Shown here: in pieces, positions 9,760-30,576 of the stretch
Layout of the letters: every line of letters begins with the position of its first letter
Numbering within the stretch: position 1 is the stretch's first letter
Source: Acetofilamentum sp.
Lineage (GTDB): Bacteria > Bacteroidota > Bacteroidia > Bacteroidales > JAFGXI01
Length of the DNA: 32,041 nucleotides
NCBI GenBank assembly: GCA_020720565.1
Contig: DYOK01000006.1
Coordinates: 1 to 32,041 of the forward strand
Direction: 5' to 3'
Notes under the pieces: generated by a model
The model's input: the letters and a program-made list of their open reading frames with translations, nothing else
Databases searched by the model: none
Told to the model about the DNA's origin: nothing
Position numbers and translations under genes: made by a program

Positions 9760-10131
9760 TTATTTAAGTTCAACTTCTGCTCCTGCTTCTTCAAGTTTAG
9801 CTTTCAATGATTCAGCTTCTTCTTTAGAGCAACCTTCTTTAATGGCTTTAGGTGCAGCGTCAACTACTTCTTTAGCTTCTTTTAATCCAAGACCAGTTAA
9901 TTCTTTAACTAATTTTACTACTTGTAACTTTGCAGCACCACCGTTAACAAGAATTACATCGAATTCAGTTTTTTCGGCAACAGCGGCACCAGCAGCAGCA
10001 GCAGGAGCAGCTACTACAGCAGCAGCAGCAGGTTCAATACCGTACTCATCTTTAAGTACATTAGCTAACTCGTTTACTTCCTTAACAGTTAAATTAACCA
10101 ATTCTTCTGCAAGTTTTTTAATATCTGCCAT
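9760..10131 (-). CDS. rplL: 50S ribosomal protein L7/L12
   Basis: 123 aa with Ala-rich hinge and conserved C-terminal [43 protein letters not shown]. Confidence 0.99.
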
Positions 10132-18788: not shown

Positions 18789-18928
18789 ATATCGTTGATT
18801 TCGACGATAATCTGAAATATCGTTAATTTCGACGATAATCCGAAATATCGTTAATTTCGACGATAATCTGAAATATCGTTGATTTCGACGATATTTTGAA
18901 ATATCGATAATTTAAACGATATTTGTTG
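18789..18928. repeat. tandem array, 5 units with exact 28-bp period, each an imperfect dyad (ATATCGT-N8-ACGATAT-like)
   Basis: Units start at 18789, 18817, 18845, 18873 and 18901: ATATCGTTGATTTCGACGATAATCTGAA and variants. The array ends 1 bp before the SatD-like start codon. Confidence 0.95.
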
Positions 18929-18929
18929 C

Positions 18930-19574
18930 ATGATAGCAGTTATTACAGGCGATATAATCGCGTCGAGGCATTTGGTGAACCAAGAAATATGGTTAGCACC
19001 ACTTAAAACGCTATTATCTACATGGGGTGAAAGACCCAAAACATGGAATCTGGATCGTGGTGATTTCTTTCAAATTGAGATTTCTAATCCAGAAGATGCT
19101 CTTATAAAAGCGTTTGAAATAAAGTCGTTAATCAAAAAAGCAACTCCACTCAATAACCACAAGAAAATAAGCACTATAGATGTTCGAATGGCTATTGGAA
19201 TAGGCGATAAAACATATTCTGGCGAAACCATATCGGAGAGTAACGGCCAAGCGTTCATATATTCTGGCGAAAAGTTTGATGTTTTAAAAAAAGAAGGCAT
19301 AACGATCGGCATTAAAACGCCATGGATAAATTTAGATGAAGAAATCAATTTATACCTAAAATTATCTCAAACTTTTATCGATAGTTGGTCGGTTTCATCA
19401 GCCGAATTAGTTAATCTAATCTTAAAAAACGGAAACACAAGCCAAGAAGAAATCGGACAAAAATTAAGTATAAAACAAAATTCTGTAAGCGGCCGATGGA
19501 ATAGATCTCATGCTGAAGAATTATTGGAGGTTGAAAAGATGTTTCGAAAAAAAGTAATGACGATACTCAAGTGA
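18930..19574 (+). CDS. SatD family protein with C-terminal helix-turn-helix
   Basis: 214 aa; MIAVITGDIIASR N-terminus, RGDFFQIEI, VRMAIGIGDKTYSGETISESNGQAFIYSGEKF, then an HTH-like C-terminus LVNLILKNGNTSQEEIGQKLSIKQNSVSGRWNR. Confidence 0.85.
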   Translation: MIAVITGDIIASRHLVNQEIWLAPLKTLLSTWGERPKTWNLDRGDFFQIEISNPEDALIKAFEIKSLIKKATPLNNHKKISTIDVRMAIGIGDKTYSGETISESNGQAFIYSGEKFDVLKKEGITIGIKTPWINLDEEINLYLKLSQTFIDSWSVSSAELVNLILKNGNTSQEEIGQKLSIKQNSVSGRWNRSHAEELLEVEKMFRKKVMTILK

Positions 19575-30450: not shown

Positions 30451-30576
30451 TTTTTGAATTATCAATTTTCTATTATGAATTAAAGATTAAAGATTTAAAA
30501 TTAAAGATTAAGAATTAATAATGAATCAACAAAAGAATTACCCTGCAACATTAAACCTGAAACCTTCAACAAATCG

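Follow-up and report, generated by a model that had tools for sequence, protein, structure and literature searches.

Five tandem 28-bp repeats stand directly in front of a two-gene unit, satD-DUF3307, in the 32,041-nt stretch of DNA analyzed here (the window; contig DYOK01000006.1). Indirect but strong evidence indicates that they are the operator at which the SatD-like protein controls its own unit, a reading in which we have high confidence. The same 28-bp layout, with DNA letters changing in step with the predicted DNA-reading helix of the protein, recurs in front of this gene pair across Bacteroidota and on plasmids of other bacteria. Multi-site autoregulatory operators have precedent; what differs here is a family-wide helix-to-site code, for which we found no description in the literature library searched.

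The 28-bp dyad array of satD-DUF3307

The array reported in the original prediction is real. Tandem Repeats Finder scored it at 210 with 4.8 copies, and a repeat search gave five in-register copies at exactly 28-bp steps. The repeated element is best written as a 20-bp dyad, TATCGT-N8-ACGATA, followed by an 8-bp linker (28 = 6+8+6+8), so that half-sites lie every 14 bp in alternating orientation. The last dyad ends 8 bp before the satD ATG. A dyad finder with no spacing constraint scored 57 here, against a maximum of 15 in shuffled sequence. One condition set in advance for rejecting an operator was that the array be found at many unrelated loci of the same genome. Instead, in the 2.85-Mb assembly exact dyads occurred only in this array, one-mismatch sites were scattered singletons, and a longer pattern allowing 3 mismatches clustered only here. 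There was thus no second cluster that would indicate a genome-wide regulon.

Table 1. Coordinates and supporting evidence for features of the satD-DUF3307 locus in the window
Feature	Position	Strand	Basis and remarks
Whole operator array, five 28-bp units	18789..18928	+	Tandem repeat and repeat searches
Dyad 1, TATCGT-TGATTTCG-ACGATA	18790..18809	.	Exact match
Dyad 2, TATCGT-TAATTTCG-ACGATA	18818..18837	.	Exact match
Dyad 3, TATCGT-TAATTTCG-ACGATA	18846..18865	.	Exact match
Dyad 4, TATCGT-TGATTTCG-ACGATA	18874..18893	.	Exact match
Dyad 5, TATCGA-TAATTTAA-ACGATA	18902..18921	.	One mismatch; promoter-proximal unit, overlaps the candidate -7 element; equivalent last dyads in homologues
Candidate Bacteroidota-type promoter	18896..18925	+	TTG 18896-18898, N19, GATATTTG 18918-18925 (TAnnTTTG consensus with one change); start codon 5 nt further, so the mRNA would be leaderless or nearly so
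SatD-like protein, 214 aa	18930..19574	+	Predicted N-terminal palm domain (about 1-150) and C-terminal HTH (helices 172-179 and 183-192); 17-row alignment, AF2 model (pLDDT 83), Foldseek
Codons of the predicted recognition helix, residues 183-192 (QNSVSGRWNR)	19476..19505	+	183, 184, 185 and 188 covary with the half-site letters
DUF3307 membrane protein, 241 aa	19571..20296	+	PF11750, E 3.6e-31, 108.3 bits against a cut-off of 23; start overlaps the satD stop by 4 bp; same position in the great majority of homologous loci

The gene pair sits between lepA and an rdgB-like gene, named by sequence resemblance. The first protein matched the Pfam SatD profile (PF16264) over most of its length (2-193 of 214), but at 17.4 bits (E 0.0037) it fell below the 29-bit curated cut-off, so that "SatD-like" is the safe name. 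It does show the layout that we judged from our own alignment and the structural model, an N-terminal GD...GDxFQ...R...GxG...E domain followed by a C-terminal HTH. A PF16264 search of this and control genomes gave no match anywhere and was uninformative.

We assembled 86 non-redundant SatD homologues from genome collections and relatives; Firmicutes satD loci were not among them. Absence of the array from all orthologous loci was another named ground for rejection, and it too was not borne out. Without imposing any spacing, 172 of 180 intervals between successive dyads upstream of satD were 28 bp (147) or 29 bp (25), and 82 of 86 loci had at least one such interval. By contrast, upstream of 120 neighboring genes the figure was 6 of 68. 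Apparent exceptions partly dissolved on reading: homologous locus L029 has ATCAAC-type dyads at 28 bp, and locus L045 has a TATTAC array displaced to about 180–300 bp upstream of satD, separated from the gene by extra sequence in what may be a natural insertion between operator and gene. SatD-DUF3307 pairs on plasmids of Vibrio (three dyads at 28 bp), Pseudoalteromonas and Salinivibrio (two at 28 bp) and Enterobacter (two at 29 bp) showed the same layout, while those of Sphingomonas and P. fragi did not give a clear array.

A functionless minisatellite or slippage product is very unlikely. Units 1–4 in the window are nearly identical and copy number varies up to 8 among loci, so slippage probably helps to add units. 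However, linker and inner bases drift while half-sites stay symmetric, the same spacing persists with entirely different half-sites across phyla, and the co-variation described below contradicts this reading.

Co-variation of half-site letters with the SatD helix

The outer TAT of the half-site is nearly constant, while the next three letters differ between lineages (TATCGT, TATTGC, TATTAC, TATCGG, TATAAG, TATTCC). Co-variation of the dyad with the SatD HTH had been proposed as a test of the operator reading, and it was strongly positive. When every SatD column was scanned for mutual information with the half-site letters, residue 188 (Gly in the window) ranked first for positions 4, 5 and 6; S185 was second for positions 4 and 5, N184 was second for position 6, and Q183 was first for position 2, although position 2 varies in two loci only. 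Triplets at 184/185/188 paired with sites as NSG-TATCGT in 16 of 17 cases, SGG-TATTGC in 5 of 5, AAR-TATTAC in 9 of 9, SSE-TATCGG in 11 of 11, SSQ-TATAAG in 6 of 6 and SNE-TATCTG in 3 of 3. Two Flavobacterium-type loci with Arg for Gln at 183 have TGTTAC instead of TATTAC (2 of 2). Residue 188 alone is not a complete code, since SSD occurs with TATCGG, TATCGA and TATCGT, and SAQ with three sites. Two loci may have been caught in a change of specificity: L015 has an intact ATCG-type array and a possible remnant of a GGAAT-type unit closer to the start, and L009 has an ATCG-type dyad upstream of its TATTAC-type array.

Shared descent was examined in three ways. Controlling for N-domain divergence, the partial correlation was 0.66, while 3000 entropy-matched sets of other columns reached at most 0.33. 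On a tree built from the N-domain alone, 17 of 25 site changes fell on branches where the helix also changes (150 branches, p = 7e-11), with control column sets reaching at most 11. Some helix and site changes are nonetheless shared by descent, and an independent-pairs sign test restricted to well-supported branches had too few pairs to reach significance. In the AF2 model the covarying residues lie at the N-terminus of the second HTH helix, where a recognition helix meets the major groove.

These results make SatD itself the predicted reader. That another DNA-binding factor reads the array and SatD is only a neighbor is very unlikely: HTH proteins are common in these genomes, but the best-covarying positions are exactly the predicted DNA-contact residues of SatD, above every control set of columns, and the array travels with satD between phyla and onto plasmids. 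The co-variation leaves undecided whether SatD physically occupies the sites, as no binding was measured.

Candidate promoter position and proposed mode of control

The original prediction had placed a promoter at TTG 18767 with its -7 element in unit 1. That position is not supported; it would put most of the array downstream of its start, and we saw no counterpart in homologues. The better candidate is at the 3′ end of the array, overlapping unit 5 (Table 1). A TTTG-type element lies at or after the last dyad in 47 of 76 homologous loci, and in Flavobacterium-type loci TATATTTG lies inside the last dyad. No transcription start data were used.

In our favored model, SatD dimers bind each TATnnn-N8-nnnATA dyad through the C-terminal HTH, with residue 183 (Gln) reading the constant TAT part and residues 184, 185 and 188 reading the three variable letters. 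A 28-bp step is 2.67 turns of B-DNA, placing successive dimers about 240 degrees apart by calculation; the fixed step would imply contacts between neighboring bound SatD (or SatD/DUF3307) molecules. When the last unit is filled it would cover the -7 element just in front of the start codon, holding the operon at a low autoregulated level. The array, its conservation, its 28/29-bp spacing and its co-variation with the SatD helix are demonstrated here, whereas direct binding, cooperativity and the repressing sign, which rests on overlap with a predicted promoter in the absence of expression data, are inferences from geometry and sequence. The main inference of the original prediction, a multi-site operator read by the HTH of the SatD-like protein, is therefore supported, but its cooperative autoregulation was not shown. 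The signal that would relieve repression is not known; the cyclase-like palm domain predicted for SatD suggests a nucleotide.

It is possible, though we think unlikely, that SatD uses the array mainly to activate its operon or as a sensing platform. In about half the loci the array lies further than 10 bp from the ATG, so geometry relative to the start codon varies, and the predicted palm domain suggests that SatD responds to or makes a nucleotide. Against this, the last dyad overlaps the -7 element in the window and in many homologues, which together with the Flavobacterium-type arrangement favors occlusion, and the operon of closest design, hipBA, is repressed (PMC3376134).

RNA hairpins in the leader, acting as a riboregulator or terminator, are very unlikely. 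The stretch folds well as RNA (-47.8 kcal/mol, z -4.5), as any dyad array must. But G-U pairs are not enriched among non-Watson-Crick dyad pairs (0.15 against 0.23 by shuffling), the TATTAC/GGAATA class has consistent A/G mismatches, the letters covary with a protein HTH, and the likely start site is at or beyond the array's end, so the array would not be transcribed from it.

Predicted SatD domains, related systems and genomic context

Foldseek placed the SatD N-domain with GGDEF, class III cyclase and Cas10/Csm1 palms. The best E was 5.8e-3 at a TM of about 0.4, suggestive rather than significant, and too little to settle the fold assignment either way. Both candidate metal-binding Asp residues are conserved, D8 in 84 and D45 in 86 of 86 homologues; their equivalence to OptS D6/D57 is inferred, and enzyme activity was not assayed. 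The DUF3307 model was too poor to use (pLDDT 68.7), and its PDB search was uninformative.

The closest known design is hipBA, in which the Xre-type antitoxin HipB, an HTH protein encoded in its own operon, represses by cooperative binding to four TATCC-N8-GGATA sites; in the O1-O2 oligonucleotide the sites are exactly 28 bp apart, start to start (PMC3376134). The best PDB sequence match of the SatD HTH profile is HipB (E 0.0065). The satD locus likewise has several HTH-type sites in the module's own promoter region. The systems differ in that HipB is a small HTH protein while SatD has an additional N-terminal domain, the partner is a membrane protein rather than the HipA kinase, the dyad is 20 bp rather than 18, and the half-site letters vary across a large family. 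MetJ-type operators also have tandem sites filled by neighboring repressor dimers, but with 8-bp boxes, a ribbon-helix-helix protein and no 28-bp lattice.

Panoptes (mCpol/OptS plus 2TM-beta/OptE) pairs a palm enzyme with a membrane effector in toxin-antitoxin fashion (PMC12657218, PMC12657230). OptS has two metal-binding Asp and matches to GGDEF and Cas10 (PMC12657218); SatD has two conserved candidate metal-binding Asp, and its matches to such palms are suggestive only. SatD-DUF3307 lacks the 2TM-beta effector of Panoptes, its partner being DUF3307, and no HTH or operator array appeared in the Panoptes descriptions we consulted. In S. pyogenes satD is accessory yet essential where present (PMC11323703), as expected if it restrains a toxic partner; adjacency of a DUF3307 gene there was not checked. 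Together these comparisons suggest, but do not show, that SatD restrains DUF3307; toxicity of the partner without SatD was not measured, and a toxin-antitoxin or Panoptes-like identity is inference. A more speculative and rather unlikely reading, not excluded by the evidence, is a mobile two-gene guard or toxin-antitoxin module in which one protein both makes, with its palm domain, a nucleotide signal that restrains the membrane protein DUF3307 and, through its HTH, gauges its own level on the 28-bp lattice, in effect a Panoptes-like module with built-in transcriptional feedback.

Almost nothing is published on the SatD-DUF3307 pair in the library searched, which yielded no operator or DNA site for the streptococcal satD. 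The present results give the pair a predicted DNA target, a readable helix-to-letter code and a candidate promoter, and the co-variation amounts to a natural library of matched HTH-operator pairs in one fold. The form of the module (predicted palm enzyme-like domain plus HTH, coupled to a membrane protein, patchy, on small plasmids, sometimes inside type I restriction operons) makes it a candidate toxin-antitoxin or defense system, and offers a reading of why satD is essential where present in S. pyogenes.

Distribution of the module is patchy. Only 6 of 295 genomes of the window's order, the window's own included, carry a close SatD, while 55–72% identical relatives occur in other orders and one Chlorobiota MAG. 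SatD and DUF3307 were absent from the phage collection searched, and neither protein matched a PADLOC defense family, apart from E 0.023 to SAVED. Among 49 close neighbors scanned, five are type I specificity subunits and four are type I restriction subunits. The pair lies inside or beside type I restriction operons at loci L009, L012 and L014, and also at L013 and L018, and between hsdS and hsdR in the first three, where both are on the contig; exact assignment by locus came partly from gene position and length. Such hsdS/hsdR neighbors occur in a minority of loci and elsewhere neighbors are mixed or housekeeping genes, so we rejected defense-island membership as a general rule. Two small enterobacterial plasmids, pEC34A (3770 bp) and one of 4424 bp, carry a SatD-like/DUF3307 pair as their main cargo. 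A Sphingomonas plasmid (locus L112, 2742-7193) has the pair directly beside an annotated Pycsar effector and a cyclase gene, with a TIR-domain gene nearby. Two further repeats were seen in the window, a short A/T-rich tandem repeat of period 7/14/21 at 30478-30518 and a GCA-type trinucleotide repeat at 9977-10031, with 18 copies at 76% matches.
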